A stretch of 50,594 nucleotides of DNA from a virus, in the IMG/VR virus record IMGVR_UViG_3300044984_002789, positions 1 to 50,594 of that record. The stretch is one strand, 5' to 3'. A model generated the notes under the pieces. The model worked only from the letters and a program-made list of their open reading frames with translations. It was not told the origin of the DNA and searched no databases. The stretch's first letter is position 1. The number at the start of each line of letters is the position of its first letter. Shown here piece by piece: positions 2 through 33,112 of this stretch. A program made the position numbers and the translations under genes.

Positions 2-2884
2 TATCAGGAAGATTACGCTGCATTACTAAGTAGTCTTGGACCGTACGGTGGACAGTTTCAAGATGAATTACAGGAATTAACTAAAACTTTAGATGGTGCT
101 AAACTAGAGCAAGCTAAAACAGCATTTTTAACTAAGCTACAATCTACCAGTGGCATAATAGATAAGCAAGATGCTAGTGGTAGAAACACCGATATATTTA
201 AAGCACTTACTGAGTTATTGAGAGTTGGTAGAAATGCTGATGGTACCGCAAAGGTACAGGGTAAGTGGTTTGAAGAGTTAGTAAAAGTTAATAATCAGTT
301 AACTAATGGAATGACTGGGGTTAGTAGCGTTAATGTTTACGATAGTGTAACGGAAGATGCTGTAAAAAATCTACTAGCAGCACAAGTTGGGTTTGTAACT
401 GATATTAAAAATAGTTTTTCACAAGTTCACGCTGATATATTAAATGAGGCGGTAGCCGCCACTGCATCACAGCTTGGAAGAGATCATGTTAGTGTATTAA
501 CTGCAGTTGAAAACTATGCGGCGCAATCTATTAGTGCATTTGAAGCTAATGGTGCAAGAGTACTATCAGAGGCTGCTAAAACTTTTGCTGATGGGTCAGA
601 AGTAGAGTTACAAAACACTGTTGTTGCATTAGTGCGTGAAGCGCTAGTTGGCTCTAATAATCAAGCAGATGAGCTAAAGTCGTATGAGCAATTAAAATAT
701 ATTGGTGATTATAATCAGTATATGGCTCAATTAACTGAAAAGTTGTTAAGCACTAATCAAATATTAGGCAAAGAAGACACCAAGCTATTACAAAATCTAA
801 TCAAAAGTGGAAAAGATTCAGGCATTACTGATTCCGCAATGCTTGACGCTTTGGCAGATATTCAAGCTAAAGTAGCCACCGGTATTGATGTTAAAGTTGC
901 TGATTCTGTAACGAATAAGTTAACAGAATCACAAGCGCAGCTATCGGATGCATTTTCCCGAACTGCGGTAGATTTAGAGGGCTACAACAAAGGTCAAGGT
1001 AAAGCACTAGCAACCCTGCGTAGTAGTAATACAGCTACTGGTAAAATGCTTGCCGAGCTAGCTGCTATTAAACGCAACAATGGATCAATATCAGGTGGGG
1101 ATGTTCGTGGTGCGGTAGAAACAGCAGGTGGTGGCGACGCTATTGCAAAAGAAGTGCTTGGTGCTGTTGGTACTATGGTAAAAGCGGTATACGTTTTTGC
1201 AAAAGATGTTAGTAAGTTTACATCTACAGAATACGATGCGTTTGTAAGCAACAACATACAGCTAGATCGTACCGCTACCGGATCAACTAACGCAACTAAA
1301 CTAGACCTCGGTGAAGCTGATTTCATGAAGGTGTTTAGCGATTATAAAACCGCGTGGGTGAATGAAGGTGTTGGAGCTATAACGCAACAAATGCAAGCAA
1401 CTCATGATCAATATGAGCGCGTGTACGGTACCGATCCACAGGTTATAGCAAAAAATCAGTTAGCATTTAAGCAATTATCACAAATAACTGGATTAACTAC
1501 TGATCAGATTGCTGATATGCAACATAGCATGAAGCAAATGTCAACGGTTGTTGGATTAAGTACTCAAGAAATGACAGATATGACTATGAACATATCTAAA
1601 GATGCAGCATTTAGAAGCACATTACAAAAAATGAATTCTGCAGATCGTGCCGCAAGAGTAATGCAAATTCAAAAACAAGTAGAGTTTGCAGCTGCATTAG
1701 GTATGTCAAAAGAAGCTACTGAAGAGTTTGCTAAAGCGGTGCTTACAGTTGGTGAAGGGCTTTCACCAGAGGAGATTTTAGGTGATGTTGGCGGTATAAC
1801 TAATTTTGTGGCTACACTAACCCAAGCTGGTCAGCAAGTAGGTGTATCAGCAATTGACTACGGGTTGTCTGCTGACAAAATGAATGCATACAACGATGCA
1901 TTAATGATTAATGCTAGTGCACGTACCGAAGAGCAAAATAAATTAGTAGCTGAAACTGGAACACAAATTGCAAAGTTTAAGAATGATATTGAACAAGCGC
2001 AAAATGAACAAATTAAGGGCCTAGCTACACCTGAAGAGAAAAAAACCGCATCTCAGCAATTTGCAGGTATTAATACTGTTGCAAAGATGAGTGAAGCAAA
2101 ACTATCAGATGCACTAAAAAAGACAATTGAAGTTCCAGCAAGTCAACAATTAGAACAAGAATCTGCACTTAATCGTATGAAAAATGGTGCAAGTATAGAA
2201 GAGGTCAAAGCACAGGGTGAAGCGCTACAAAAAGCACAAGAGCCTGCATATCTTGAAGCTGAAAAAACTCTAGCTGATACGTTAAATCACATTTCAGCGC
2301 TATTTGATGGGTTAGCTGGCGCTGTTGCAACCGCAGTAGCGGCATTAGTGTTAGGTGGTGGTGCGTTACAAAAAGGTGTTGGGTTAGCTAGAGCAGCCGG
2401 AACTGCAGCAACTGCGATAGAAGGTGCGGGTATGTTAACTATGGCGGGTGAAGCTATTGCCGGTATAGGTACTATGGTTGCTGGAGCAGTGTCATCACCG
2501 GTAGTGCTTGGTGCACTTGGAGCTGCAGCGGTAGGTTATGCTGGATACGAGGCTTATAAGTACTTTTCAGATGATGATAAATCTGAAGGTACTGCAAAAC
2601 CAGCTGCTGATGCTAATAAACAAACTGCGGTTCAAATTACACCTGAAGAACCTAAAAAACTACCATCGACTCAAATTACAGAATCATTAAGTAATGAAAT
2701 ATCAGCTACAATTGCTGATGTTGGTAAACAATTACTAACATTCCTTGGTAGCGTTCCAGGTGATGTTACAAATACAGCTGCTTCAAATGCAGCGTTACTA
2801 GAGGTGATGAGCAACTGGGTTAAATCACAATCTAACCTAACTCCAGTGCCCGTTATAACACCGCAACCAAACGTTACACGGTAG
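2..2884 (+). CDS. Tail tape-measure-like protein, 5' partial
   Basis: The frame is open from base 2 with no credible start inside the window, so the gene enters from the left; about 960 residues are visible. The protein is alanine-rich and largely helical, with long stretches lacking Pro and Gly. A strongly hydrophobic Ala/Gly-rich block is encoded at about 2290-2560, followed by a charged linker (DDDKSEG) and a short C-terminal domain. Long helical proteins with a hydrophobic segment near the C-terminus, next to baseplate genes, are typical of tape-measure proteins, which set tail length and are ejected during DNA entry. It converges with the next gene and overlaps it by 11 bases. It could instead be another large virion protein, since no family motif is decisive. 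Confidence 0.5.
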   Translation, partial: YQEDYAALLSSLGPYGGQFQDELQELTKTLDGAKLEQAKTAFLTKLQSTSGIIDKQDASGRNTDIFKALTELLRVGRNADGTAKVQGKWFEELVKVNNQLTNGMTGVSSVNVYDSVTEDAVKNLLAAQVGFVTDIKNSFSQVHADILNEAVAATASQLGRDHVSVLTAVENYAAQSISAFEANGARVLSEAAKTFADGSEVELQNTVVALVREALVGSNNQADELKSYEQLKYIGDYNQYMAQLTEKLLSTNQILGKEDTKLLQNLIKSGKDSGITDSAMLDALADIQAKVATGIDVKVADSVTNKLTESQAQLSDAFSRTAVDLEGYNKGQGKALATLRSSNTATGKMLAELAAIKRNNGSISGGDVRGAVETAGGGDAIAKEVLGAVGTMVKAVYVFAKDVSKFTSTEYDAFVSNNIQLDRTATGSTNATKLDLGEADFMKVFSDYKTAWVNEGVGAITQQMQATHDQYERVYGTDPQVIAKNQLAFKQLSQITGLTTDQIADMQHSMKQMSTVVGLSTQEMTDMTMNISKDAAFRSTLQKMNSADRAARVMQIQKQVEFAAALGMSKEATEEFAKAVLTVGEGLSPEEILGDVGGITNFVATLTQAGQQVGVSAIDYGLSADKMNAYNDALMINASARTEEQNKLVAETGTQIAKFKNDIEQAQNEQIKGLATPEEKKTASQQFAGINTVAKMSEAKLSDALKKTIEVPASQQLEQESALNRMKNGASIEEVKAQGEALQKAQEPAYLEAEKTLADTLNHISALFDGLAGAVATAVAALVLGGGALQKGVGLARAAGTAATAIEGAGMLTMAGEAIAGIGTMVAGAVSSPVVLGALGAAAVGYAGYEAYKYFSDDDKSEGTAKPAADANKQTAVQITPEEPKKLPSTQITESLSNEISATIADVGKQLLTFLGSVPGDVTNTAASNAALLEVMSNWVKSQSNLTPVPVITPQPNVTR

Positions 2885-3929
2885 GTTGTTGACCTTGTTG
2901 TGCAGGTTGTTGTTCTGGTTGTGTTTGCTGTGCAGGTTGAGCAGCTCCACGAGCAGTTGCTTGCTTATTAATCATAGCTAATTGCTGCTGTAATCTACGA
3001 ATCTGATCATCATATAATTTACTTGCACGAGCTTTTTGTACAGATATTGCAGCAATTTTGGTTTGAATTGCATTTACATTAGCTGTAATATCTTCATTCA
3101 TAACATCGTTAAAATCCATAACACCTTCATATGTTGGAGTATTAGTTACTTCATTACGGTATTTCGCTAATTTAGCCAATCTATCCGCTTCTTTCTTTTC
3201 TTCAGCTTGCTTCTTAAAGTGCTCTTCAGCACGAAGCATATCTTCTTCATTTTTAACTTTAGTGTTAGTTAATTGAATAGTTAACTTTGCTTGCTCAGCT
3301 TCAGCTTGAGCTGTCTTTGCTTTTGCTTCAGCCGTTTTTGAATCAGCATCCGCTTTTAACATATCAATAACTTTAAGTAGTATGCTTGAATCATCTACAG
3401 CAGGTGCCGCTGGTGGTAGCTCAGCAGGTAGTTCACCCTCTGCTCCCTCTGGTGGAACATCACCCTCAGGTTTATCACCATCTTTTTTGGTATCAAGCAC
3501 ATTATCAACTTCTTCATCTTCTGGTAGCTTTGGCCACTCAACATATAAGATATCAAAAGAGTTTCTTAAGTTAAATAAAATTTCGTTAACATCAACGTGA
3601 TCTTCATCTTGTAATATCTTACTTAACGCCTGTTTAAACTCACCATCTTGCTCTTTGCTAACATATACTTTTGTAATATTACCATCAGCATCTTCTATAC
3701 CATACGCTACAGAATCTTGTTTAAGCTCATTTGCTTTTTCTGCACCTTGTAATTTTGACACTACATCAACACTACTAAAATCATTAACTTTTTTATCTTC
3801 TGTCAACTTGTACTTTTTCTTACGCTTACGTGTTATTGGTTTTGAAAACATTGGCGCACGAAATCCAGCGATATCTCCACCAGAGATCGCAGCGTCACCG
3901 CTTTCATTTAAATAATCTGTCAGTCTCAT
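2874..3929 (-). CDS. Putative virion protein with capsid-targeting-like N-terminus and coiled coil
   Basis: A GTG at 3941 is in frame, but the Shine-Dalgarno GGAG abuts it; the same GGAG lies 11 bases before the ATG at 3929, so the protein most likely starts MRLTDYLNESG (351 aa). This N-terminus matches those of five other proteins in the window and has L-N-E at residues 7-9, like a T4 prohead-protease site. A basic patch (RKRKKK) follows near residue 35. The middle is acidic and Pro-rich, then comes a long Ala/Lys/Glu coiled coil, and the C-terminus is Gln/Pro-rich (repeated QQ, QPAQQ). A late-type TATAAATA box lies upstream. I know similar unannotated proteins in T4-like phages but cannot name a function. 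A virion component is the best inference. Confidence 0.6.
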   Translation of the reverse strand: MRLTDYLNESGDAAISGGDIAGFRAPMFSKPITRKRKKKYKLTEDKKVNDFSSVDVVSKLQGAEKANELKQDSVAYGIEDADGNITKVYVSKEQDGEFKQALSKILQDEDHVDVNEILFNLRNSFDILYVEWPKLPEDEEVDNVLDTKKDGDKPEGDVPPEGAEGELPAELPPAAPAVDDSSILLKVIDMLKADADSKTAEAKAKTAQAEAEQAKLTIQLTNTKVKNEEDMLRAEEHFKKQAEEKKEADRLAKLAKYRNEVTNTPTYEGVMDFNDVMNEDITANVNAIQTKIAAISVQKARASKLYDDQIRRLQQQLAMINKQATARGAAQPAQQTQPEQQPAQQGQQPTV

Positions 3930-3956
3930 TATGCTATACACTCCGGAGATACAACT

Positions 3957-5180: not shown

Positions 5181-8100
5181 ATGTACGGTCCAAATCAAAA
5201 CGTAAATCCATATACAGTGGTATCTACTGGGTTAATAGTAGATACTAACGACCCGCAAGGTCGAGGTAGAATAAAAGTATATTGTCAAGCATACGGAGAC
5301 TTACCAGGTACGCCATACGAAAACTTACCGTGGTGCAACTATATTACTCCATTTGGTGGAATGATATCTACAAATATTAATAGAGGTCCAGATGATTCTG
5401 TAACGGAAGGATCTACATCGTATGGCATGTGGGCACTACCAAAAGTCGGTTCTGAAGCTGTTATTATGTGCTTAAATGGTGATCCAACTAGCAGAGTCTT
5501 CTTTGGATGTATGCCTCCTAGATTCATGGAACATACTATGCCTCATGGTAGACATATTAAAGATAAAGATGGTAAATATTCTGGCCCACTATCATCTACC
5601 GAAAAACCTATTCAACCATTATCAACTAACATAACAAAAGCGTTTGGCACAGATACTAAACGTCCTGAATACGTATCCCGTGTTACAGATCCAGGGGTAA
5701 CTGGATTAAGTGATCAATATATAAAAAACAAGTATACAGAATCACAAGTTGCTGATACCACGTCTGGATATAAACGATCTAGAATTAATCCAGATCGTAA
5801 ATTTACTGCCAATGGTGACAACTACGATAGTCAGATATATTCAATGACTACACCAGGATTTCACTCATGGTCAATGGATGATAGCGCTGATAATTGTAGA
5901 ATACGTATTAGATCTTCTTGTGGACATAATATTATAATTGATGATACTAATGAAAGAATATACATTAACACAGCTGAAGGTAATAACTGGATTGAACTTG
6001 ATCAAGATGGATCTATTGATATCTACGCTAGTCAATCAATATCTATTAATTCTGATGCAGATATTAATTTAAATGCAAAGCAGTCTATCAGAATGCACGC
6101 AGAAGATATACACATGAATGCTAATCATGATATCGTACTATCATCTAATCATGTCATCAGTAACAGTAGCGACGTTATAACCTCTACTGCAAAAACAAAT
6201 TATTATGTACGTTCACAAAAAACTAACTTACGTAGCACTAAAGAAATTAACACTACTAGCGATAAGATAACTACTATTGCAAAATCAAACTGCTACATTC
6301 AAGGTAAGGTGCTTAACCTTAAAGGTACTACAGCGTTAAAAGCTGAAGGTAAACGTACAACAGTTACCGGTACAAATAATCTAGTATTAAGTGGCAATAC
6401 ACTTGATGCGGTTACAACTAAATTTAACATTACTAATAAATCATCACTAACTATTAGAAGTGGTTCAATAATACTAGGTAGTGCCGCTATTAGTGCAACC
6501 AGTGGTATAGTAGCACCACAAGCTGTAGCAAGTAAGACTAAAGCAGCTCTAGGTGTTGCAGGCTCAGTTGGTTCAACTGGTGCAGACGTTACACCGGTAT
6601 TAGTCGATGGAGTTTTAGTTGATCCAACTGTAACACCAGTTTCAAGTGATACGTCAGGTGATAGTGCTGCTTCTAACCTAACATCTGCACAACTAGCTCA
6701 GGTATTGGGATCTATTTCAAGTGATAGTATTAGCGACACTATGGCAAATATGCCTAGTGAAGATCTTGGTCGTGCGTTATCAGAAATGTCAGATGAGGTT
6801 GTTAGTAATCTGCTTAGTAGTGTTGGTGCAGATATGTTTGGGCAAGTATCATCAAATATACCAGCTGATATGCTACCTGGTATTCTAGATAAGATTAGTG
6901 GAGCTGCAGCTGGCGGTATAATGCAATCATTACCACCAGAAGACTTAGATGGTATTTTATCTCAATTACCGTCACCTCAATTAGGTAATATATTATCAAA
7001 AATTCCATCGGATCAAATTAACGATGTGGTAGATAATATACCAGATACTAACATATTAAACGATATGCAAAGTGCTAAATTAGGTGACATGTTATCAAAT
7101 ATGCAGTCAGATAAATTAGCAGCATTATTAGAAAAAATAGATCCTAATACGGTATGTAATTTACATCCTGCGCTCGCAGGCGAGTTAATTGCACGTGCAA
7201 ATACAGAAAAATCTACTGTAGATGCAAACGGGGTTGCAGTAGATCAAAACACTGTTACTCCTGATAACGCGCTTAAGTATCCTAATTTTGGTAGAATTTT
7301 AGCAACTAGATCACCAGACGAGATTAATAGTGTACTAGCTAATATGGAGCCATCTGCATTAGGCGAAGCAATGTCGTATATACCGACCGACAAATTAACC
7401 GTAGATAGCACCGGGGTTCAACGATTTGATACATCGAAAATTATTCCCGGTAATTTTCAAAGCACCTTTTCAAATAGCATGACTGGTGCAGATATTGGCG
7501 CAAAAATTGCTGATTTACCACCTGAAGATGTCAATAATCTTATGGAGCAAATGTCACCAGATCAACGCGGTCAACTGCTAACCATGGTGCCAGATACCGG
7601 TGTTGTACTACCACAAGTATCTAAATTTTTAACAAGTTTAAGTGACAAGGATAAAGTTGCAGTATTTACATCTGCTGCAAGTATGGATGCAACTGAAGCG
7701 CTAAATAGTATGACAAATGATGAAGTTACGCAAATGAGTGCGGTGCTTCCAACGTTAAGTGGTCCTGATGCAACTGGAGTATTATCCGACTTTAATGATA
7801 AAGACGTAACATCACTACTAAATGGTATGGAGCCAGATGATGTTGGTAGTATGTTAAAAGATATACCAATTAATGATTTTACTGATTTAATTAATCGTGC
7901 ACCACTTGCTGATTTAATTGATGTATTCTCAAATATGTCACCTGAATTATTGGGAGCTGATCTTGCACGTATCCCAGATGAGGAGCTTAATAACTTCTTA
8001 ATGAGCATGCCAAACGAAACAATGATGAGTTTGTTGGATAAAATACCTGATCAAGATAGGGCAGCGATATTAACAAAAATGAATGGACCTAGAGCTGCAT

Positions 8101-8267
8101 CATCATCAGCTGCATTAATAGCCGCATATCCATTGAGAATACCAAAACACGAACCATGGATTAGGTCAGATAATAAATCTAATACTGACATGACTCAGAA
8201 ATATACAAATAATGAGGCTGAAATTGGACGGACTCATAAAACTAGAAATAAGTATTGGAGTAGGTAA
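5181..8267 (+). CDS. gp5-like baseplate central spike protein with OB domain, beta-helix and C-terminal helical repeats
   Basis: Residues about 10-115 form a gp5-type OB-fold (Y-T-x-V...DPQGRGRIKVYC...PW...GSEAVIM), the platform of the tail needle. Residues about 233-440 are short Ile/Asn/Asp-rich repeats (for example SISINSDADINLNAKQSI), as in triple-stranded beta-helix spikes. No lysozyme domain lies between them, unlike T4 gp5. From about 500 to 970 the protein carries many short repeats of the pattern LPxEDLxxILxxLP, which resemble the MgtE N-terminal superhelical repeat and are unusual on a spike. The tail ends IPKHEPWIRSDN; a similar HEPW element occurs in other phage gp5 proteins. It should puncture the outer membrane. 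The next gene overlaps it by one base. Confidence 0.85.
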   Translation: MYGPNQNVNPYTVVSTGLIVDTNDPQGRGRIKVYCQAYGDLPGTPYENLPWCNYITPFGGMISTNINRGPDDSVTEGSTSYGMWALPKVGSEAVIMCLNGDPTSRVFFGCMPPRFMEHTMPHGRHIKDKDGKYSGPLSSTEKPIQPLSTNITKAFGTDTKRPEYVSRVTDPGVTGLSDQYIKNKYTESQVADTTSGYKRSRINPDRKFTANGDNYDSQIYSMTTPGFHSWSMDDSADNCRIRIRSSCGHNIIIDDTNERIYINTAEGNNWIELDQDGSIDIYASQSISINSDADINLNAKQSIRMHAEDIHMNANHDIVLSSNHVISNSSDVITSTAKTNYYVRSQKTNLRSTKEINTTSDKITTIAKSNCYIQGKVLNLKGTTALKAEGKRTTVTGTNNLVLSGNTLDAVTTKFNITNKSSLTIRSGSIILGSAAISATSGIVAPQAVASKTKAALGVAGSVGSTGADVTPVLVDGVLVDPTVTPVSSDTSGDSAASNLTSAQLAQVLGSISSDSISDTMANMPSEDLGRALSEMSDEVVSNLLSSVGADMFGQVSSNIPADMLPGILDKISGAAAGGIMQSLPPEDLDGILSQLPSPQLGNILSKIPSDQINDVVDNIPDTNILNDMQSAKLGDMLSNMQSDKLAALLEKIDPNTVCNLHPALAGELIARANTEKSTVDANGVAVDQNTVTPDNALKYPNFGRILATRSPDEINSVLANMEPSALGEAMSYIPTDKLTVDSTGVQRFDTSKIIPGNFQSTFSNSMTGADIGAKIADLPPEDVNNLMEQMSPDQRGQLLTMVPDTGVVLPQVSKFLTSLSDKDKVAVFTSAASMDATEALNSMTNDEVTQMSAVLPTLSGPDATGVLSDFNDKDVTSLLNGMEPDDVGSMLKDIPINDFTDLINRAPLADLIDVFSNMSPELLGADLARIPDEELNNFLMSMPNETMMSLLDKIPDQDRAAILTKMNGPRAASSSAALIAAYPLRIPKHEPWIRSDNKSNTDMTQKYTNNEAEIGRTHKTRNKYWSR

Positions 8268-8854
8268 TGGCACAACGGCAAACAGTTAACACTCTGGGTA
8301 TCGATCTTTCATCGCTTATAGCGACACCAACAGTAAAAGGTACTAATACCAAATCAACTAGTATATTGAATGGTACTAATAACCTTAACTATAACGGTAC
8401 ACTATATAGAGGCTTTTCTACTATCGATTTTAATTCAGGTACAATTAAAAAAGGTGTGTTTCCAGCTACTAATACGCAAGGACTAACATCGCCTATACCA
8501 GCAAATTATAATATTGAAAATCCCGGGAATAATACATTTACCCTTACTGATGTTAGTCTAGTTGAACGGAATATACTAAATCATATTAATACAATAAAAG
8601 GTAGTCGAGTAATGATGCCTGGATTTGGATCAATTATTCCTGAATTGTTATTTGAGCCGTTAGATGATGAAGTAGTGATTCAGGTTGAAGATGAACTTAA
8701 AACAATTATTGCGTATGATCCACGCGTTCAATTATTAAAAATTAAGTCAACTAAAATACCAAATACTAACACGTTAAATGTTGCAATGATGTTAATGTAC
8801 ATTGAATTAAATGTTACTAAAAATATGGACTTTAATTTAGAATTCAGTGCATAA
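8267..8854 (+). CDS. gp25-like baseplate wedge protein
   Basis: This 195-residue protein has a C-terminal GPW/gp25 domain: NHINTIKGSRVMMPGFGS, then LLFEPLDDE, then DPRVQLLKI. This is the family's characteristic order (a loop around PxFG, an acidic helix and the strand after DPR). T4 gp25 is about 132 residues; this one carries an N-terminal extension of about 80 residues (Asn/Thr-rich). gp25 is part of the inner baseplate ring next to gp6 and gp53 and starts sheath assembly. The ATG shares one base with the spike stop codon, so the two are probably translated together. Confidence 0.85.
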   Translation: MAQRQTVNTLGIDLSSLIATPTVKGTNTKSTSILNGTNNLNYNGTLYRGFSTIDFNSGTIKKGVFPATNTQGLTSPIPANYNIENPGNNTFTLTDVSLVERNILNHINTIKGSRVMMPGFGSIIPELLFEPLDDEVVIQVEDELKTIIAYDPRVQLLKIKSTKIPNTNTLNVAMMLMYIELNVTKNMDFNLEFSA

Positions 8855-8857
8855 ATA
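8850..8857 (+). promoter_or_regulatory. Late-type promoter box (CATAAATA)
   Basis: CATAAATA has one mismatch to the T4 late consensus TATAAATA. It overlaps the stop codon region of the gp25-like gene and lies 27 bases before the ATG at 8885, the first gene of the tagged-protein operon. Confidence 0.35.
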
Positions 8858-8884: not shown

Positions 8885-9457
8885 ATGAAATTATACGAAA
8901 TCGCAGTTCCAGATGTAGATATTGCTAAATTAAAGCAGTTATGTGCTCCTTATATTGAAGTATTAAAGCATACTGACGGTGCTCCATTATTTCGTGGATA
9001 TAAAGGTAGTAGATTTACCAACGTTGAAGGTTTTAATGTAATAGAACCTAACTTAAATAGAGTTCCGGTTGATACCCCTCGAGTGCTACACGATGCACTA
9101 AATCAATCGTTTAAGCGTGCTTTTGGTTTTCCATATCGCAATGGAGTTTTTGCTTCTAGCAGTTATGATGATGCACGTTATTACGGGCCGGTTTATGCAG
9201 TGTTTCCAATTGGCGAATTGCACTATATTTGGAGCAAACAAATTAGTGATTTATATGTTCAATTGGATAAAACCTTTGACTTTGAGACACTTGAAAGCTC
9301 TAAACAATCATTAATAAATGCTGTTGCTAGCATAGCTGATGCGTATCAAAATAATGAATTGGATAAAGCTATACAAACAGGTCATGAAGTTATGCTTAAC
9401 AATAAGTGTATTATGATTCAAAATTATGGTATGATTAAAGATGCGGTGATGTCGTGA
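8885..9457 (+). CDS. Tagged ADP-ribosyltransferase-like protein, paralog 1
   Basis: First of three tandem paralogs (190 aa) that alternate conserved blocks: C-x-PYIEVLK, LFRG (R38), DTPRVLHD..N, FPYRNGVFASS (S91-S93), FPIGELHYIWS..ISDLY and GHEVM (E168) near the end. The order Arg, Ser-rich strand, Glu is that of R-S-E ADP-ribosyltransferases such as T4 Alt. The usual ExE is reduced to a single Glu here, so I treat this as inference. The N-terminus MKLYEIAVPD belongs to the capsid-targeting-like tag set. It overlaps the next gene by 4 bases (GTGA). The family is widespread and unannotated in T4-like phages as far as I recall. Confidence 0.45.
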   Translation: MKLYEIAVPDVDIAKLKQLCAPYIEVLKHTDGAPLFRGYKGSRFTNVEGFNVIEPNLNRVPVDTPRVLHDALNQSFKRAFGFPYRNGVFASSSYDDARYYGPVYAVFPIGELHYIWSKQISDLYVQLDKTFDFETLESSKQSLINAVASIADAYQNNELDKAIQTGHEVMLNNKCIMIQNYGMIKDAVMS

Positions 9458-10092
9458 GATTACATGAAGTTATAGATGCAACTGATTTATCACATATTGT
9501 TGAAACTATTAGACAGCATTGTGGACCGTATATTGAAATACTAAAGCAAAATAACGGTGATTGCTTGTTTAGAGGTAGTAATAGCGGTAAAGCCTATCCA
9601 GGTCATATTAACTTAATTAAACCTAGATTAGATAGAACTCCATTAGATACGCCTAGATTAATACATAAGTTTTTAAATCAAGAGTTTCAAACAAAATTTC
9701 ATTTTCCGTTCCGTAATGGAATATTTGCCACAGGTAATCAACCACGTGCAGCTGGATATGGTTCCGTCAGCGTAGTGTTTCCAGTAGGTGAATTAAATTT
9801 CATCTGGAGCCCTAAGATAGAAGATCTGTTTGCTGTTGTTGACACTACAATTGCTAACTTGGGAGATGGTACAGCGTTTGATTCAGATGAGGATCGTTTA
9901 GATAATACTTTACCTGTTAGTGACTACAACAATAAGCTGCTGCTTGATAAACTCAATCAATATATTAATACCTATACAAATAAAGATTTACTTGCAGCTA
10001 CTGCCAGTGATCACGAAATAATGTTTGCAAATGATTGCTATATGGTTAGTATCTATGATTATGGAAAAGTAGTTCAGGAGTTAACAAAATGA
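9454..10092 (+). CDS. Tagged ADP-ribosyltransferase-like protein, paralog 2
   Basis: It starts with GTG overlapping the previous stop as GTGA, giving MRLHEVIDATD (212 aa). Conserved blocks appear in the same order as in the first paralog: HCGPYIEILK, LFRGSN, RTPLDTPRLIHK, FPFRNGIFATG, FPVGELNFIWSP and, near the end, SDHEIMF. The Arg of LFRG, the FAT(S/G) strand and the Glu of HEIM are retained. It has about 20 extra residues between the IWSP block and the C-terminal Glu. It overlaps the next gene by 4 bases (ATGA). Function is inferred only from motif order and from comparison with T4 Alt. Confidence 0.45.
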   Translation: MRLHEVIDATDLSHIVETIRQHCGPYIEILKQNNGDCLFRGSNSGKAYPGHINLIKPRLDRTPLDTPRLIHKFLNQEFQTKFHFPFRNGIFATGNQPRAAGYGSVSVVFPVGELNFIWSPKIEDLFAVVDTTIANLGDGTAFDSDEDRLDNTLPVSDYNNKLLLDKLNQYINTYTNKDLLAATASDHEIMFANDCYMVSIYDYGKVVQELTK

Positions 10093-10682
10093 AACTAAAT
10101 GAAATTCTTAATAATGATAATCATAGCATCGATGAAATTGTAGCAATATTAAAACGTGATTGTGCTCCAATTATTGCGGAGTATAATAACGTTGGGGTGC
10201 CATTATCTCGAGGAATACAAGATAGCAATATACCACCAATGACCGTTATTCATCCATCACTAGATAGTAGAAGTCCTAAAGATACTAATATAACGGTTCA
10301 TAATTATATTAACAATTACTTTACTAAGCATGCTGGGTTACCATTCCGTAATGCGATCTTTGCAACCTCTGATTGGGAAGTTGCAGAAGTTTATGGTGAA
10401 GCATATGTGTTGTTTCCTATTGGACCATTAAAGTACTTGTGGAGCCCTCAAGTAGGTGATTTGTACGATACAGTGTCAAAGCTCGAATCTAGTAAAGATG
10501 CAGATCCAGCAAAAAAATATGATCAACAATTCTATCAAAAATTAGATCAATATCTTTCAACATATATATCTAAGAACCTCCACGCAGCATTAGAAGATGG
10601 TAGTGAAGTTATGATCGCTAATAACTGTTACGTGGTCACAATGGACTTATGGTTTGATCATTTAGAAGAGGCACTCTCATGA
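10089..10682 (+). CDS. Tagged ADP-ribosyltransferase-like protein, paralog 3
   Basis: Third paralog (197 aa), starting MKLNEILNNDN at an ATGA overlap. Blocks: RDCAPIIAEYN, LSRGIQ (the Phe of LFRG is replaced, Arg kept), SPKDTNITVHNYIN, LPFRNAIFATS, FPIGPLKYLWSP..GDLYD and GSEVMIANNCYVV. It is the most diverged of the three by eye. The candidate catalytic Arg, Ser/Thr and Glu are all present. The ATGA overlap with the kinase gene suggests the four proteins are made together in fixed proportion. Confidence 0.45.
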   Translation: MKLNEILNNDNHSIDEIVAILKRDCAPIIAEYNNVGVPLSRGIQDSNIPPMTVIHPSLDSRSPKDTNITVHNYINNYFTKHAGLPFRNAIFATSDWEVAEVYGEAYVLFPIGPLKYLWSPQVGDLYDTVSKLESSKDADPAKKYDQQFYQKLDQYLSTYISKNLHAALEDGSEVMIANNCYVVTMDLWFDHLEEALS

Positions 10683-11407
10683 AATTATATGACATATTAT
10701 CAGAAGGAATCTACGACAAAGGTATTTTTAAGTGCTTATTCCTAGGTGGTATTCCTGCTAGTGGAAAAAGCACAATCGTGAAAGATATTATTCAAGAACT
10801 AACTGTATCACATAGCATTAAACCACGTGTATTAGATTACGATAAATTTTATGAATACTTGAGCAAGAAGCATGATGTACCTATTAGTACAAGCGCTGAA
10901 GTTGAAGCTCCAGGAGCAGTATCAATTCAAAATAGAACTAAAGAGTTAATGTCATCACAACTTGAGTTATACCTAACCAGTATGCTACCAGTTATTATTG
11001 ACACTACTGCATCTAATGTTCATAGTACCATCGTACGTATGCGTAGACTACGCCAATACGGTTATGATGTAATGATGTTATATAAAGAATCTGAATTAGA
11101 GCGATCATTAACTCGGGCTGAATCACGTAGACGTTTTGTGCCACCAGAGTATATTAAAGATACGCACGAATCAAAACCTAGAACGATTGAAAAGATGCAA
11201 AAAGTGTTTAATAATGCACACTATCCGTTGCAAATACTAGGTGTAGATGAGGAGGTGGCGACTGTAATGCCTGCTATAGTACAATTCTTTACTAGTCCAA
11301 TACGTAATCCTATTGGCTTGCAGCAGGTTGATAGTCTAAAATCTGCAGAACGTAAATATATTATACGTGGGCAGACTCCTCCAGTTGATTGGTATGGAAA
11401 ATATTAA
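10679..11407 (+). CDS. Tagged P-loop kinase, zeta-toxin/AAA_33-like
   Basis: The 242-residue protein begins MKLYDILSEG, with L-S-E at residues 7-9, as in the tagged set. A Walker A motif GGIPASGKST lies near residues 23-32. It is followed by VLDYDKF (probable substrate Asp), VIIDTT (Walker B-like strand) and an Arg-rich lid (RAESRRRF). This is the layout of the small-molecule and RNA kinase family that includes zeta toxins and PNK-type kinases; the substrate cannot be told from sequence. It is the last gene of the four-gene coupled operon and converges on the next gene with a 4-base overlap. It could be an injected effector given its tag. Confidence 0.6.
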   Translation: MKLYDILSEGIYDKGIFKCLFLGGIPASGKSTIVKDIIQELTVSHSIKPRVLDYDKFYEYLSKKHDVPISTSAEVEAPGAVSIQNRTKELMSSQLELYLTSMLPVIIDTTASNVHSTIVRMRRLRQYGYDVMMLYKESELERSLTRAESRRRFVPPEYIKDTHESKPRTIEKMQKVFNNAHYPLQILGVDEEVATVMPAIVQFFTSPIRNPIGLQQVDSLKSAERKYIIRGQTPPVDWYGKY

Positions 11408-11658: not shown

Positions 11659-11691
11659 ACATAGCTCCATAAATCTAAAGTGTATATTATA

Positions 11692-11699
11692 TATTTATT
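11692..11699 (-). promoter_or_regulatory. Late-type promoter box (AATAAATA, minus strand)
   Basis: On the minus strand this reads AATAAATA, one mismatch to TATAAATA. It is 33 bases before the ATG of the small gene ending at 11658 and lies back to back with the host-type promoter for the RNA repair gene. Confidence 0.3.
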
Positions 11700-11721
11700 C
11701 CATATAACATGCACGTATAAC

Positions 11722-11750
11722 TTGATTTATAATTGCAGGTGTACTATAAT
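11722..11750 (+). promoter_or_regulatory. Sigma70-like promoter for the HD-Pnk gene
   Basis: TTGATT (11722-11727), a 17-base spacer and TATAAT (11745-11750), followed by ATATTATTTTTT. It lies 28 bases before the ATG at 11779. The same arrangement recurs before the RNA ligase at 13144. Confidence 0.75.
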
Positions 11751-11778
11751 ATTATTTTTTTTTATCGTGGTGATTATT

Positions 11779-12900
11779 ATGGACACAAATCAAAAAGTAG
11801 AGTGGTTGCAAATAGAATTCCCTAAGTTGTGGAGTGATATGGAGAACAGTAATCACCATTTTAATGCAACTACATTAAACCCATATCACCTAGAGGGTCG
11901 TGTGAGTACTCATACACTGATGGTGGCTAAAATAGCTGAATTATATAATGAAGATGATATTGTACAATGGGCTGCATTGCTACATGATATCGGCAAACCA
12001 TCAGCTCGTATCGAGATTCCAGAAAAAACACGTGCTAGATTTGTACAACATGAATCGATTAGCATGTTTTTAGCGATTGATATATTAAATAGAACAGATA
12101 TGTCAACAGAAGATAAAATAATGACTCTGCGTACTATAGCTGGTCACAGTTTACTATTTGATTTAGTATTAATTGAAGATAATGACCTCGTGCTAGATGA
12201 AAAAGCTCTTACTATCTTTGAAGGTGAACGTACGTTTTTATCGTATGTTAGTCGAATTACTCGATGCGACACACTCGGTAGATTTGCAAAAGGTGCTGAT
12301 GCTCGAACTAAATTAGGTGAATTAATAGTTAACCGCACACAAACAATTGTTGATCGGTTAGTTGATAAACCTGATATTAATATTACTAAAAATAGATTAA
12401 CTATACTATGTGGTCTACCTGGTAGCGGTAAATCTTCATACATTGAAACGTTACCTGCAGATACAATTGTTATCTCCAGAGATAACGTGCTTGAAGCTAT
12501 TGCAGCTCGTATGAACATTACATACAATGAAGCGTTTCACTTACAAGCTAATGATAAGCAAGTTAAAACCGCTATCGATGATGAAATTGCTAGAGTAGTT
12601 CAGTCCGCTAAATCAACTAATGCAAACGTGGTTGTCGATATGACTAATTTGAGCAAAAAATCAAGACGTCGTTGGATTGGTCAGTTTGGTAAACATTATA
12701 GAGTTGAGTGCATACTATTTTTAACTGGTATGTCAGAACTTGCACGGCGCAATGAAATTAGAAGTCAAGCTGGTAAATCTATAAGTGATGATGTATACTT
12801 ACATATGATGAAATCGTTTACACTACCTATGTATAATGAAGGAATATCTCGCATTGAATATAGGTTATTTGAAGGGAATACAAATGCAACAACACATTGA
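11779..12900 (+). CDS. HD-Pnk: HD-domain phosphoesterase fused to 5'-OH polynucleotide kinase
   Basis: The frame is open further upstream but that part overlaps the promoter; ATG 11779 with GGTGATT in front is the start (373 aa). Residues about 40-170 are an HD domain: H45, the HD pair at 69-70 (LLHDIGK), H91 and a later Asp in TRCD. Residues about 205-365 are a PNK-type kinase: Walker A GLPGSGKS (212-219), SRD (233-235), then VVVDMTN and an Arg-rich stretch. The same domain order occurs in the characterised bacterial HD-Pnk of Runella slithyformis, where HD removes 2',3'-cyclic or 3' phosphates and the kinase phosphorylates 5'-OH ends. It would prepare broken RNA for the ligase encoded 0.3 kb downstream, replacing the kinase-phosphatase PseT used by T4. 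Confidence 0.82.
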   Translation: MDTNQKVEWLQIEFPKLWSDMENSNHHFNATTLNPYHLEGRVSTHTLMVAKIAELYNEDDIVQWAALLHDIGKPSARIEIPEKTRARFVQHESISMFLAIDILNRTDMSTEDKIMTLRTIAGHSLLFDLVLIEDNDLVLDEKALTIFEGERTFLSYVSRITRCDTLGRFAKGADARTKLGELIVNRTQTIVDRLVDKPDINITKNRLTILCGLPGSGKSSYIETLPADTIVISRDNVLEAIAARMNITYNEAFHLQANDKQVKTAIDDEIARVVQSAKSTNANVVVDMTNLSKKSRRRWIGQFGKHYRVECILFLTGMSELARRNEIRSQAGKSISDDVYLHMMKSFTLPMYNEGISRIEYRLFEGNTNATTH

Positions 12901-13147
12901 CGGTATTAATAATCTAACTAATTTATATGATGAATCGCTGAGAGCTAGAGCACTGCAATGGCTTGACCGGTATACAGACGCATCTATCACACGTATCTGT
13001 ACTACTGAGGACGGGTGCATCTGTATTGAATATAACTTAGATGATTTATACCATCAATGTGTCGTATTTGAGACAAAAAGACTTATCATGTGGAACACGG
13101 TAGGTAACGTTCGTAAGAATTATCGCAGAGTACAATATTTAACTTGA
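12884..13147 (+). CDS. Small hypothetical protein between HD-Pnk and RNA ligase
   Basis: A longer frame begins at 12836, but the ATG at 12884 follows GAAGGG closely, giving MQQHIDGINN (87 aa) with a 17-base overlap of the HD-Pnk end. It has an acidic C-terminal half with strands (CICIEYNLDDLYHQCVVF) and no motif I recognise. Its position, coupled to HD-Pnk, suggests a shared role or expression, but nothing more can be said. Confidence 0.6.
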   Translation: MQQHIDGINNLTNLYDESLRARALQWLDRYTDASITRICTTEDGCICIEYNLDDLYHQCVVFETKRLIMWNTVGNVRKNYRRVQYLT

Positions 13148-13172
13148 CTTAACACTATAATTGTACTATAAT
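13144..13172 (+). promoter_or_regulatory. Sigma70-like promoter for the RNA ligase gene
   Basis: TTGACT (13144-13149), 17 bases, TATAAT (13167-13172). The -35 box overlaps the last codon and stop of the preceding gene. The stretch GTACTATAATATTATTTT is nearly the same as in the promoter at 11722. Confidence 0.78.
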
Positions 13173-13211
13173 ATTATTTTAAAGCAATCAATTAAATCAA
13201 AAGGTGCATAA

Positions 13212-14333
13212 ATGACTTTTCCAATTATTAATAATATCAACGACTTACTACCACATATCAGCGATAAGTCTGAAATTAACGTAGTTACACATGAAAATGG
13301 TTGTACAGTAATTAGCTATATGTTTCAAGATCGAGATACATTTGCCGGTGAAAACGCAGAGTGGGCTCGTGAATGTAGAGGTATCACATTTGACGCAGAA
13401 GGTAATGTTGCATCGAGAACATTTCATAAATTCTTTAATGTAAACGAGCGTCCTGAAACAAAAGAAGAAGTTATTGACTGGAATGATATTCAATCAACTT
13501 ATGATAAGCGTGATGGGTCAATGATTTCACCTGTACGCATTAATGATAAGATTGTTTTTAAAACTAAAAAGAGTTTTGATAATGAAATTAGTCAGAACGT
13601 AAACGCTATATTTAATGATGAGTCTCCTGAATATCGATTAAGTGAGTATCTATTAACTCAAGAAATTAAAGCTACTCCAATTTTTGAATATACCGCACCT
13701 AGTAATCGTATTGTATTAAAATACGATGAAGTAAAGCTAACATTATTAGCTGTACGTGAGAATATTACTGGTATGTATTGGACTTATAGTGAGCTTCTTG
13801 AGCTATGTAATAAATTATTTCGTACTATCAACCTAGTAGATAGATTTTCAGTTGATACTAATGATGTAAATTGGCTAGGAAAATTAAAAGATGTACTAGC
13901 CTCAGCTGAAAATTTTGAAGGCTATGTTTTTGAAACAAGTACAGGTGAGCGATATAAATGGAAATGTGCTTGGTACGACTTACTACATCATAACTGCACA
14001 TTTACAACTGAACGTAATATCGCGGAAATGGTTGCAGATGAAAAAGTAGACGATTTTAAAGCTTATTGTGTCAGCATTGGTGATACAGAACTGTTTAATA
14101 AAGTAGAAGCTATTGAAACCCGCGCGGTTAACTTATTACGAGATCTTACACTTGCAGTTGATGCTACAGTAGTAATTGATAGTGGGCTAGAAGTTAAAGA
14201 TTTTTGCTTAAAGCATAAAGATAATCCATTGTTTCATTTAATGATTGCTGCATTTAGGCATAAAGAAGTTAACTATATTGATTACTTTAAAAAGTACGTA
14301 CTAAATATTGAATTTAGTGCAGACACCATTTGA
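13212..14333 (+). CDS. RNA ligase, T4 Rnl1-like
   Basis: The 373-residue protein (T4 Rnl1 has 374) carries the nucleotidyltransferase motifs in order. These are the upstream ARECRG strand, motif I K-R-D-G-S with the adenylated lysine at residue 99 (the same number as T4 Rnl1 Lys99), motif IIIa/III near TPIFEYTAP, motif IV EGYVF and motif V YKWKCAWY. The start at 13212 has AAGGTG 6 bases upstream. Rnl1-type ligases seal 3'-OH/5'-phosphate RNA breaks, classically tRNA cut by host anticodon nucleases. Together with HD-Pnk this makes a complete heal-and-seal pair. The stop codon overlaps the -35 box of the next promoter. Confidence 0.88.
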   Translation: MTFPIINNINDLLPHISDKSEINVVTHENGCTVISYMFQDRDTFAGENAEWARECRGITFDAEGNVASRTFHKFFNVNERPETKEEVIDWNDIQSTYDKRDGSMISPVRINDKIVFKTKKSFDNEISQNVNAIFNDESPEYRLSEYLLTQEIKATPIFEYTAPSNRIVLKYDEVKLTLLAVRENITGMYWTYSELLELCNKLFRTINLVDRFSVDTNDVNWLGKLKDVLASAENFEGYVFETSTGERYKWKCAWYDLLHHNCTFTTERNIAEMVADEKVDDFKAYCVSIGDTELFNKVEAIETRAVNLLRDLTLAVDATVVIDSGLEVKDFCLKHKDNPLFHLMIAAFRHKEVNYIDYFKKYVLNIEFSADTI

Positions 14334-14358
14334 TTTTTATGTTAAAATATACTACAAT
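14330..14358 (+). promoter_or_regulatory. Sigma70-like promoter before the zinc-finger/nucleotidyltransferase genes
   Basis: TTGATT (14330-14335, overlapping the ligase stop), 17 bases, TACAAT (14353-14358). It lies 32 bases before ATG 14391. Confidence 0.65.
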
Positions 14359-14390
14359 AGTATTTTAAATCAATTATAAAGAGGTTTAGA

Positions 14391-14615
14391 ATGCTTTGTA
14401 GTATATGCGGAGATGATACCGCGGTATCGTTTGAAGATCTAGAGATTTTTGAACATAGAGGTGTAGTTAAAGAGCTACCGTCGTATTTTAGTGAGTGCGA
14501 TCAATGCGGTTTATTTGCTACACAGTTACAAATAAACAAAAATGCTGCAATTACTCGTAAGTTTCATGAAGATGTAAATAAAATGTTCTTACGTTATGCA
14601 AACGTTATTTTTTAA
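14391..14615 (+). CDS. YgiT/MqsA-type zinc-finger protein
   Basis: 74 residues with C-x-x-C at the N-terminus (CSICG) and C-x-x-C after the strand (SECDQCG). A central EHRG element separates them, as in the zinc-binding N-terminal domain of MqsA/YgiT-like antitoxins. No DNA-binding helix-turn-helix half is present, so it is the zinc domain alone plus a helical tail. GAGG lies 6 bases before the ATG. In bacteria such domains bind partner proteins; here the partner is unknown. Confidence 0.6.
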   Translation: MLCSICGDDTAVSFEDLEIFEHRGVVKELPSYFSECDQCGLFATQLQINKNAAITRKFHEDVNKMFLRYANVIF

Positions 14616-14627
14616 ATGGTGAATACT

Positions 14628-14828
14628 ATGGTAGTTAACGACCAAAACTTAAATAGTAAAATTAGTAGATCTGCTATGATATCAGAACTAGAACTTAAAC
14701 AAATTATGTCCGATCGCAGTATGTGTCACGCAGAAAGCGTTGCACGTGACACCCCATCTAAAAGTACTGCTCGTATGCAACAAGCGTTAGACTTTAAGTT
14801 TGATGAAATCTTTAGGAACAGTAAATGA
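14628..14828 (+). CDS. Small hypothetical helical protein
   Basis: An in-frame ATG at 14616 exists, but GGTGA ends 5 bases before the ATG at 14628, which I prefer (66 aa). The product is charged and helical with a Ser/Arg-rich middle. It overlaps the nucleotidyltransferase gene by 4 bases (ATGA), so it is probably translated with it. No family recognised. Confidence 0.5.
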   Translation: MVVNDQNLNSKISRSAMISELELKQIMSDRSMCHAESVARDTPSKSTARMQQALDFKFDEIFRNSK

Positions 14829-15757
14829 ATATTATAGTTGAAACATTGTTCGGTAGTCACTTGTACGATTTAGACACACCTAACTCCGATAAGGATTATA
14901 AGGGTGTAATTTTACCTACTGCTAGTGAAATTTTATTAGGTAAAGCAAGCTATCACGTCGACAAGAGCACCAGCAATCATTCTGGTAAAAATACTAAAGA
15001 TGATATTGATCGTACATTTTACTCATTAAGTTACTTTATTGATCTTGCGTGTAAAGGTGAAACGGTTGCACTTGATATGTTGCATGGTGGTGTAGATAAA
15101 CGTATTGTCACCAGTGATATCTGGGATTTTCTTGTGAGTAATCGCCATCGATTTTATACAAAATCAATGAAGTCATATATTGGATACGTACGTAAACAAG
15201 CAGCTAAATATGGCATTAAAGGCTCACGGATTGGTGAGTTAGAAAAACTCATTGACTACCTTAAAAACCACGACGCTAACTTAGTTGTTGAAGATATGTA
15301 CTTTCCAATAAATGACTTTGGAAAGTGGATCGACTACAAAGGTAACAGATACTATGAATTTGCTGGTAGTAAGTTTCAAGACAATCTAAAAATTAAGTAT
15401 ATGCTAGATACGCTTGAAAAAATTTATGCAAATTATGGAGAGCGTGCTAAATTAGCAAAAGAAAATCTTGGAGTTGATTGGAAAGCTGTGTCGCACTGCT
15501 TACGTGCCGGATATCAAGCTCGAGACATCTTTACTAAAGGTTACTTTGAATATCCACTAGATGAAACAGATTTTCTGATAAAGGTTAAAGCTGGTGAGCT
15601 AGATTTCTTGACGGAGGTCGAACCAGAAATTGAACGAATCACTAAAGAAACATTAGCGTTATCAGATGAATCTACGCTACCGCAAGACGTAGATCGCGAA
15701 TTTTGGAATACAGTTATTGAGACTATACATCTTGATATTGTAAAAAAGACATTGTAA
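14825..15757 (+). CDS. Predicted nucleotidyltransferase (COG3541/YcgL-like)
   Basis: The 310-residue protein opens with FGSHLYDLDTPNSDKDYKG. This is the GS(H)LY...SDxDYxG motif of COG3541 predicted nucleotidyltransferases, in which the Ser and the two Asp residues form the polymerase-beta-like active site. The middle contains a conserved helical region (YIGYVRKQAAKYG). Members occur in many T4-like phages, often near RNA ligases. The substrate is unknown, and tRNA or RNA ends are a reasonable guess here because of the neighbouring repair enzymes. It is coupled to the preceding small gene by ATGA. Confidence 0.75.
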   Translation: MNIIVETLFGSHLYDLDTPNSDKDYKGVILPTASEILLGKASYHVDKSTSNHSGKNTKDDIDRTFYSLSYFIDLACKGETVALDMLHGGVDKRIVTSDIWDFLVSNRHRFYTKSMKSYIGYVRKQAAKYGIKGSRIGELEKLIDYLKNHDANLVVEDMYFPINDFGKWIDYKGNRYYEFAGSKFQDNLKIKYMLDTLEKIYANYGERAKLAKENLGVDWKAVSHCLRAGYQARDIFTKGYFEYPLDETDFLIKVKAGELDFLTEVEPEIERITKETLALSDESTLPQDVDREFWNTVIETIHLDIVKKTL

Positions 15758-16515: not shown

Positions 16516-16521
16516 CTAGCC
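16500..16521. terminator. Hairpin spanning both stop codons of a convergent gene pair
   Basis: GGCTAGT (16500-16506), 8-base loop, ACTAGCC (16515-16521). The + strand TAA and the minus strand TAG stops are adjacent inside it with no spacer. The tail AGCTTTTG on the + strand is only weakly T-rich. Confidence 0.35.
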
Positions 16522-17532
16522 AGCTTTTGACTTGAATAATTCAAGATTGTGAATAAGCGTATCGTGAACCCATGGAAACTTAACGTTGCGCTTAGCATAA
16601 TCAAACAAGCTTACTGGGCTATCATTTAACGCAGATTGCTGATACGTGGCAAGATTTGTACGGACATTATTAAAATCTACTACACCGTTAAGCCATACTA
16701 ACAATAACAATTTAACATCTGTATCGCTACGACCGTGCAAGAATTCATACAATGAGCGATCTGCAGCTTTTGATTCTAACAACCGTTGAAGTTTCTGACA
16801 TAACTCACCAGATATTGATCTTAAAATAACACTCACTTTTTTAGTTTTATCATCTAATGCTTCTTCCAGAGCATCAATGTTGTAAATGCTCAGTAACTCT
16901 GATTTACGTTTCGTAAAATCATTATTGAAAATAGTATCTAGAACAACTAGTTTGTCTTTGTTTAGTAGCAGTACTTGTACTTGCTCACCATCGTGAATTA
17001 GTTCATTAGAGTCTGCAAACCCACTATAATTTAAAGCAAGTAGAATTTTAGCCCATTGTTGTTGATATCTTTCAGGACTTAACTCTTTAGCAATGTATTT
17101 TGTTAATTGCCAGAACGCTTCAAATGGTTGTTTGTATGCAATGCGCTCAAGTTCTTTATCTAGATTAACTAAATGTGAGTATCTATTTTTTAAAACATTA
17201 ATATCGTTTTCTAAGTTTCTATATCTATCAGTAGCTAAGATTTCGTGTGGAAATTTTATGATATGAATATATGGGTGGTTGTTTGCATACGGATAATTGT
17301 CAAAGTTTTGATTTTGCTCAACATTATACTTAGCCCAAGTTGACTTTAGCGGGTAAGCATATATTCCGGCTGGAGCGTCGGTTGACTTAGTGCTAATCGG
17401 TGGCTTACTGTTTTTTGACATACTAATATAAACGGCAGCATCATTCTTATACGGTAGCAACTGCTCATACGCTGATCGTTTTGTTTTAGGTGCTGAAGAT
17501 TCTTCAGCTTCAAATAATTCATATAATTTCAT
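16516..17532 (-). CDS. Tagged phage protein of unknown function (MKLYELFEAEES...)
   Basis: The 338-residue protein begins MKLYELFEAEES, with L-F-E at residues 6-8, the best match in the window to the T4 capsid-targeting peptide MKTYQEFIAEA. The body begins with an alpha/beta region containing VYISMSKN, AGIYAYPL and PYIHIIK. I recall these blocks from unannotated T4-like phage proteins. The remainder is helical. A perfect TATAAATA box lies 31 bases upstream, with no strong Shine-Dalgarno. A protein packaged in the head is the best inference. Confidence 0.6.
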   Translation of the reverse strand: MKLYELFEAEESSAPKTKRSAYEQLLPYKNDAAVYISMSKNSKPPISTKSTDAPAGIYAYPLKSTWAKYNVEQNQNFDNYPYANNHPYIHIIKFPHEILATDRYRNLENDINVLKNRYSHLVNLDKELERIAYKQPFEAFWQLTKYIAKELSPERYQQQWAKILLALNYSGFADSNELIHDGEQVQVLLLNKDKLVVLDTIFNNDFTKRKSELLSIYNIDALEEALDDKTKKVSVILRSISGELCQKLQRLLESKAADRSLYEFLHGRSDTDVKLLLLVWLNGVVDFNNVRTNLATYQQSALNDSPVSLFDYAKRNVKFPWVHDTLIHNLELFKSKAG

Positions 17533-31910: not shown

Positions 31911-33098
31911 CTATAATGCTTCATATATAACACATTCACCAAACGGTGGTGTAGCACTTTGATTACCTTTCACGATAAACAATGTATCACAATAATCAGG
32001 ATCACCCCAGCTACCGTTAGGATAACCGTCAGTAAACATAAAGAACTTTTTAGGTTGAATATCGTTTTCTTTCATCCAATCCCAATTAACCTCAAAATCT
32101 GTACCACCATTACCTACAGGTTCGTAATGTAATAGCTCATATGCATTATCCTGAGTAATACGTTTATGATTATATACATCTGTATCAAAACACCAAATAT
32201 CAATAGCAAAATCTTGATACTGTTCAACAATACCTACAACTTCACTTAAGAACGCTCTTGCATCATCATTGCAAATACTACCACTCATATCAAGCGCAAT
32301 TGCAATCTCAATAGTCTCTTCTTGAATAAGTCCAGGTAACACTACATTATATGCCCAACCTTTCCTGTTTGGTCTAGCATACGAGTAATTAGTTTTAACT
32401 AAACTTTGAATATTCATACAAACTATATCACGCCAGCTCAATTTAGCTTCAGTTAAGTCGCTAATCATTCGGCTAATTGCATTTGGAGTACTACCAGGAT
32501 CAGCTGATGCTGCCTGAATCATAGCTTCTCTAATCTCATTACGAATATCCTGCAATTCTTCCTTTGATAATACTGGTGCGTTAGGGTTGTCGTTAAAATC
32601 ACCGTTAATATGAGTATCTAACAACTCACCTAATTTATCCATATAATCATCTAATGAAAGCTTATCAGCATTATCGTATAAGTCATCATAGATATCTTCC
32701 CATGCCCAACCACGATACTTATCGTTTTGCAGTATCGGAATGGCTGTAATACGCTCACCAATCTTATCATCTACTAATATTTGATTAATTGCATAATCTT
32801 GCGCAAAGTTTGCTAATCTACGATTTCTTGAACCAGTTCGACCAAAATGATCAAATGCGCAATGTAAGATCTCATGAGCAAATAAAAACTCGATATTTTT
32901 AGGTGATATTTCATCTATAAATTTTGAATTATAAAAGAAGTTCCTACCATCTGTACCTGCGGTAGTTACCCATGAATCAGCATTAGTAATACGCATACGG
33001 CTTGCCATATTACCAAAAAATGGTAACCTAATCATAAGTCCAATACGACCACATACTAATTTTTCTTCAATTGCCGCAACGTCTACTTCTTGAGTCAT
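31911..33098 (-). CDS. DUF2201-type metallopeptidase-like/VWA domain protein
   Basis: 395 residues. H75-E-I-L-H79 with H84 is a zinc-binding HExxH...H site of the DUF2201 N-terminal domain. The C-terminal half is a VWA domain with the metal-ion site DMSGS near residue 270, later T in GGTDFEV and D in FTDGYPNG. Such proteins pair with MoxR-type AAA ATPases; here the MoxR gene is 14 bases upstream. The pair is related to CobS/CobT-like chelatase machines and similar genes occur in T4-like cyanophages, but the target is unknown. AGAGGA precedes the ATG. Confidence 0.82.
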   Translation of the reverse strand: MTQEVDVAAIEEKLVCGRIGLMIRLPFFGNMASRMRITNADSWVTTAGTDGRNFFYNSKFIDEISPKNIEFLFAHEILHCAFDHFGRTGSRNRRLANFAQDYAINQILVDDKIGERITAIPILQNDKYRGWAWEDIYDDLYDNADKLSLDDYMDKLGELLDTHINGDFNDNPNAPVLSKEELQDIRNEIREAMIQAASADPGSTPNAISRMISDLTEAKLSWRDIVCMNIQSLVKTNYSYARPNRKGWAYNVVLPGLIQEETIEIAIALDMSGSICNDDARAFLSEVVGIVEQYQDFAIDIWCFDTDVYNHKRITQDNAYELLHYEPVGNGGTDFEVNWDWMKENDIQPKKFFMFTDGYPNGSWGDPDYCDTLFIVKGNQSATPPFGECVIYEAL

Positions 33099-33112
33099 GG
33101 GTTATCCTCTGA

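Follow-up and report, generated by a model that had tools for sequence, protein, structure and literature searches.

In the window, that is, the whole stretch of viral DNA analysed here (an IMG/VR virus record with a length of 50,594 bases, from an uncultured T4-like phage), three coupled genes encode small paralogous proteins whose adoption of an ADP-ribosyltransferase (ART) fold is well supported by structure models. These proteins begin with a short leader that also occurs on unrelated proteins and, judged from sequence, resembles the capsid-targeting sequence of phage T4. Given this head-packaging-like start, the virus probably injects the ARTs alongside its DNA, so that they can modify molecules of the host.

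Gene layout and distribution of the family

The left part of the window encodes two proteins of the myovirus baseplate, a gp5-like hub/lysozyme protein (5181-8267) and a gp25-like wedge (8267-8854). They are followed on the plus strand by paralog 1 (8885-9457, 190 aa, ATG start), paralog 2 (9454-10092, 212 aa, GTG start) and paralog 3 (10089-10682, 197 aa, ATG start), with the leaders MKLYEI, MRLHEV and MKLNEI, respectively. Reading frame and alignment define all three genes, complemented by a structure model for paralogs 1 and 2 and by a profile match for paralog 3. Stop/start overlaps of four bases couple the paralogs, and paralog 3 overlaps in the same way with a gene for a P-loop kinase of zeta-toxin/AAA_33-like type (10679-11407, plus strand, from reading frame and profile matches), so that the operon extends beyond position 10682. 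Paralog 1 shares 39% identity with paralog 2 and 35% with paralog 3, 44 alignment columns are invariant, and the profile of PHROG 11975 matches all three proteins (E 5e-25 to 2e-32). Consequently, a chance likeness among them can be dismissed. The motif order YRG/FRG, then F-x-(S/T), then E-(V/I)-M is kept in each, with LSRG replacing LFRG in paralog 3. These results bear out the proposal of a first-pass annotation that three coupled paralogs share their motifs in this order.

Searches of Pfam, NCBIfam, PADLOC and PDB sequences gave no family match for the paralogs; DUF1217, WGG and PtuA came up weakly and were judged to be chance matches. The strong matches are PHROG 11975 and PHROG 15932, both of unknown function. 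Across 50,697 phage records, tblastn found matches only in Agrobacterium phage Atu_ph07 and Salicola phage SCTP-2, in which a profile search locates 13 and 10 matching places, respectively. The same type of search assigns 12 genes of Atu_ph07 to the family, namely the eleven consecutive genes gp53-gp63 (AUZ94865-AUZ94875) and AUZ95167. The two PHROGs and gp53-gp63 belong to the same sequence family as the window ARTs, and the family genes of the related giant phages are all listed as 'hypothetical'. The Atu_ph07 copies differ from the window ARTs in being longer and in including a two-domain protein as well as an ART-kinase fusion. The fusion is gp53, in which an ART-family domain forms the N-terminal part and the C-terminal domain is homologous to the window kinase, an arrangement that supports common delivery of the ARTs and the kinase.

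The IMG/VR contigs carry two to five copies each, mostly in runs, and no family member turned up when bacterial and archaeal genomes were scanned with a pattern. Within the collections searched, the family is confined to phages. The phylogenetic tree separates the copies into clades for Atu_ph07 (support 0.99), for locus L012 (0.92) and for the group formed by the window and L010 (0.96); paralog 1 (0.997) and paralog 2 (0.62) each have a counterpart in L010, with the order of the genes preserved. This pattern indicates repeated, lineage-specific expansion of the family, and such repeated duplication suggests that the copies differ in target.

Several other regions of the window also attract attention. 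A likely RNA-repair cluster at 11680-15757 comprises a protein with HD and AAA_33 kinase domains, a homolog of an Atu_ph07 RNA ligase, and RlaP. A MoxR-type AAA ATPase and its metallopeptidase-vWA partner, at 31911-34195, are homologous to a pair in Atu_ph07. Glycosyltransferase-like genes, together with two proteins that have a similar 'TYGGVD' start motif (46761 and 48484), occur at 34310-35308, 46761-47645 and 48484-49893.

Predicted fold and active-site residues

The AlphaFold2 model of paralog 1, which drew on 24 relatives and an input limited to the window and the IMG/VR loci, reached a pLDDT of 89.6 and a pTM of 0.84, and the model of paralog 2 reached a pLDDT of 84.1. A Foldseek search against the PDB returned nothing significant, the best E-values being 0.45 for paralog 1 and 0.72 for paralog 2. 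Such values could be read as a sign that the motif order arose by chance within an unrelated fold. However, this is very improbable, as two separate models gave VIA-align lists headed almost only by ARTs and the motifs lie at the expected strand ends. In the model of paralog 1, R37 is located in strand 35-38, at the end of the first core strand, S91 ends strand 88-91, and E168 directly precedes strand 169-171.

For paralog 1, all 22 VIA-align entries at Z of at least 2 are ART-superfamily structures. The best is BC2332 (2aua; Z 6.8, 129 residues, 4.2 Å), and Z amounts to 4.6 for Arr, 4.1 for DarT, 3.5 for both Tpt1 and diphtheria toxin, and about 3 for OspC3, CopC and SopF. Further entries include SAIP (the catalytic domain of an insecticidal protein), the anti-CRISPR protein 6kyf, PARP, PltA and pertussis toxin; the less familiar of the entries we take to be ARTs. 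For paralog 2, the first nine rows are all ARTs, and the rows below them are mostly unrelated, with Z of about 2; Arr (5.7), BC2332 (5.6), exotoxin A (4.2), PARP12 and tankyrase were all retrieved. Rotavirus VP8*, which filled the Foldseek list of paralog 2, dropped to a Z of about 2 in VIA-align and was rejected. All Z values are modest (6.8 or less) and lie below 8, in a range where common arrangements score too. The case for the split beta-sheet fold of the ARTs therefore rests on the consistency of the ART lists and on the positions of the motifs.

The VIA-align rows are mainly of H-Y-E, Arr and DarT types, and the solved folds that come closest (Arr, BC2332, DarT, diphtheria toxin, exotoxin A and PARP types) have Z values too low to separate the ART clades. 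The best structural matches, BC2332, Arr and DarT, are bacterial proteins with other catalytic residues, and the models share 5-11% identity with them. BC2332 has been matched by others to the active-site templates of diphtheria toxin, exotoxin A and cholix (PMC3024214). The R-S-E toxins of VIP2/C3 type and T4 Alt are absent from the VIA-align lists, which is no evidence against kinship.

Among the 24 family members, which share about 25% identity, E168 is invariant and R37 is kept in 22. Position 91 is S or T in 20/24, within the pattern F-(A/C)-(S/T)-(G/S)-x, and the full STS is not kept. R59 and P61 are conserved in 23 members, and C20 and Y154 in all 24. Column 166, the position of the first Glu of ExE, is variable (G, N, K, D, E, H or P), so that the first Glu of arginine-specific transferases is missing from the family. 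In weak profile alignments, the YRG of the family falls on the YRG of T4 ModB, and its E-(V/I)-M on the E-V-M-I of ModA, where the aligned Glu is the second, catalytic one of E-Q-E. Judged from these alignments, E168 corresponds to the second, catalytic Glu of ExE and the missing residue to the first. The first Glu is needed only by arginine-specific ARTs, and its loss suggests that the acceptor is probably a group other than protein arginine.

In the light of these data, the first-pass annotation needs revision on one point above all: it held that the second Glu of ExE is not conserved, which is the reverse of what the family displays, and its corollary that activity would need a variant site is not supported, the missing Glu being one that only arginine-specific ARTs need. 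For paralog 1 it had located S91-S93 and E168 correctly, whereas the Arg is residue 37 and not 38. Apart from the statement on Glu, its ART reading is upheld by the alignment of the models with solved ARTs and by the placement of R37, S91 and E168. One outcome that it had named as refuting that reading, an unrelated predicted fold, was looked for, and the fold found aligns with solved ARTs in 22 of 22 entries for paralog 1 and in the top nine rows for paralog 2.

Conservation also bears on whether the proteins are enzymes. They could be ART-fold proteins without catalysis, in which the fold serves as a scaffold for internal head or core proteins or for binding proteins. The absence of the Arg from two members (L012:2570 and L017:7312), the lack of the first Glu and the many divergent copies are in line with this, but the retention of E168 and R37 at such low identity makes it quite improbable, as does the comparison of paralog 1 with locus L008, which shows seven synonymous and no nonsynonymous codon differences. 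Alternatively, catalytically active ARTs could have nucleic acids or small molecules as targets, or act as NAD+ hydrolases, instead of modifying a protein. Arr, which acts on a small molecule, and DarT, which acts on DNA, are among the best structural matches, and the first Glu is again the missing element. On the other hand, the middling Z values do not discriminate between ART clades, and the first catalytic residue is R and not H, as is typical of the R-S-E clade; a non-protein target is accordingly somewhat unlikely, though a serious contender.

Leader peptide, late-promoter-like boxes and probable head packaging

Although the first five residues are disordered in the model of paralog 1 (pLDDT<50), all three paralogs agree in M1, L3 and E5. 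The kinase starts MKLYDILSEG, with the [L/I]-x-E site LSE/G. Two minus-strand genes of the window bear the leader as well. The product of 2874-3941, a charged low-complexity protein that is possibly a prohead core protein, starts MRLTDYLNE/SG from the ATG at 3929, and the product of 16516-17532 starts MKLYELFEAEE, comparable with MKTYQEFIAE of T4 IPIII. Both genes have TATAAATA just upstream, belong to no known family and encode candidate packaged proteins.

T4 cargo proteins are directed to the prohead by their ten N-terminal residues, and gp21 cleaves behind L/I-x-E (PMC9026906). The T4 starts compared are MKTYQEFIAEA for IPII and IPIII, and MELITELFDE for Alt. As in IPI, IPII and IPIII, a short leader of the form M-K-x-(Y/F/L)..(L/I)-x-E is found on unrelated cargo. 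The window ARTs, for which a targeting role is predicted, have L3-x-E5 but, unlike T4, no second [L/I]-x-E near residue 10 and no E at position 10.

In Atu_ph07, most members of the array start M(K/R)WxQL(T/N)E, for example MRWHQLTEA, with the site LTE/A at the end of the leader. Outside the family, 8 of 702 annotated starts show the motif, compared with 1 of 1820 among internal Met codons (p 2e-4); counting all candidate starts weakens the enrichment among non-family genes, with p values of 0.01 in Atu_ph07 and 0.11 in the window. The leader is absent from SCTP-2 gene 445 and from L012:2570. Atu_ph07 also encodes a T4-type head maturation protease (phrog_207, E 3e-55), and an LME motif occurs around residue 58 of its capsid protein. 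One of the leader-bearing non-family genes of this phage, 290373, matches ART-PolyVal weakly, with an E-value of 4e-4 that is below the cut-off. Two leader-bearing genes of Atu_ph07 outside the array, L027:40373-40885 and L028:3788-4783, one with a weak ART-PolyVal match (YHGS) and the other with LYHIT, are possibly further ARTs. The homolog of the window kinase in a T4-like methylotroph phage (Melnitz) starts MKTFAELQEG. In Pelagibacter phage HTVC008M, a nucleotidyltransferase-like protein with the start MKTLKELL (L070:3148-4938) adjoins a kinase homolog, and the leader may be widespread in Kyanoviridae.

The late-promoter-like box CATAAATA lies at 8850..8857 on the plus strand, 27 nt upstream of the paralog 1 start codon. 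It occurs once in the window, against 8.9 copies expected by chance, and TATAAATA is depleted, with 5 copies against 14.3. There are 12 NATAAATA boxes, 9 of which sit 15-45 nt upstream of a same-strand ORF start, where about 0.36 would be expected; genes downstream of such boxes include both leader genes of the minus strand and the gene for the lysozyme. This set of boxes matches T4-type late promoters.

The virion-protein cluster of Atu_ph07 comprises CDS 31-76, and 29 of its 46 products were detected by mass spectrometry (PMC6102473). The genes gp53-gp63 lie inside this cluster, to which, as a whole, the mass-spectrometric evidence applies.

The ARTs could instead be expressed during infection and remain unpackaged, the N-terminal motif being merely a family feature. 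T4 ModA and ModB form precisely such a tandem pair and carry no capsid-targeting leader, and the window ARTs have a shorter leader than the one found in T4. Nevertheless, this alternative is unlikely, as the leader is also found on an unrelated kinase and other genes, the operon comes after baseplate genes and a late-promoter-like box, and the Atu_ph07 homologs lie in the virion-protein cluster. Head packaging of the ARTs is likely, judged from the sequence features above.

The first-pass annotation had likened the proteins to T4 Alt, which is injected, and the T4-like leader, the late-promoter box and the Atu_ph07 virion cluster now lend independent support to this comparison. Common to both are the T4-like phage background, the order R...S/T...E and, by analogy, probable head packaging through an N-terminal propeptide followed by injection. 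In contrast, Alt has 682 aa, whereas the window ARTs are single domains of about 200 aa in tandem copies that lack the first Glu of ExE, and sequence homology to Alt is undetected (hhalign probability 0.2%). ModA and ModB are likewise small (about 200 aa), adjacent phage paralogs with alignable YRG and EVMI motifs, but the profile match is weak (hhalign 10-16%). The direct hhalign comparisons with Alt, ModA and ModB were set aside as too weak to count alone, and no direct sequence homology to any characterised ART was found. The polyvalent-protein and MuF-fused phage ARTs are also thought to be packaged and injected; they are fusions with head proteins or with other effector domains (PMC9503650, PMC5512222), whereas the window ARTs stand alone behind a leader peptide.

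Proposed course of infection and wider meaning

The explanation we favour, and regard as fairly likely, is that the ARTs and the kinase are late-made, head-packaged and injected effectors of a T4-like virus related to jumbo phages; packaging, cleavage, injection, catalysis and targets are the parts of it that we infer. A late operon would encode three small ADP-ribosyltransferases and a kinase, and the leader would recruit them into the prohead core, as the T4 capsid-targeting sequence does. A T4-type prohead protease would then trim the leader after [L/I]-x-E, and the trimmed proteins would be packaged alongside the DNA, to be ejected into the cell infected next. In this cell, each ART would use NAD+ to ADP-ribosylate a host macromolecule early in infection, as Alt does, with NAD+ bound by Arg37 and Ser/Thr91 and with Glu168 as the catalytic residue. 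The genes for NAD+ biosynthesis and ADP-ribose processing annotated in Atu_ph07 are consistent with the use of NAD+ but do not prove it.

Packaged phage ARTs are an established theme, and a survey sorts viral ARTs into 16 families (PMC9503650), although its main text does not mention Atu_ph07 or SCTP-2. Our literature search brought up no account of this ART family, of its expansion in tandem or of the common leader. A broader and more tentative generalisation, which we consider plausible while stopping short of calling it probable, is that a lineage of giant T4-like phages carries a head-packaged arsenal of effectors under one leader, in which many tandem, target-diversified ARTs and a kinase are injected together. 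If so, a single leader would define the injected proteome and allow it to be listed from sequence.

Most jumbo-phage genes are annotated as hypothetical, and a fold and, from the models, a probable activity can now be proposed for a whole family of them (12 genes in Atu_ph07 and 10 places in SCTP-2). A simple N-terminal signature may serve to predict the proteins that accompany the DNA into the host. This opens to direct test the question of what molecules of its host a jumbo phage modifies during the first minutes of infection.
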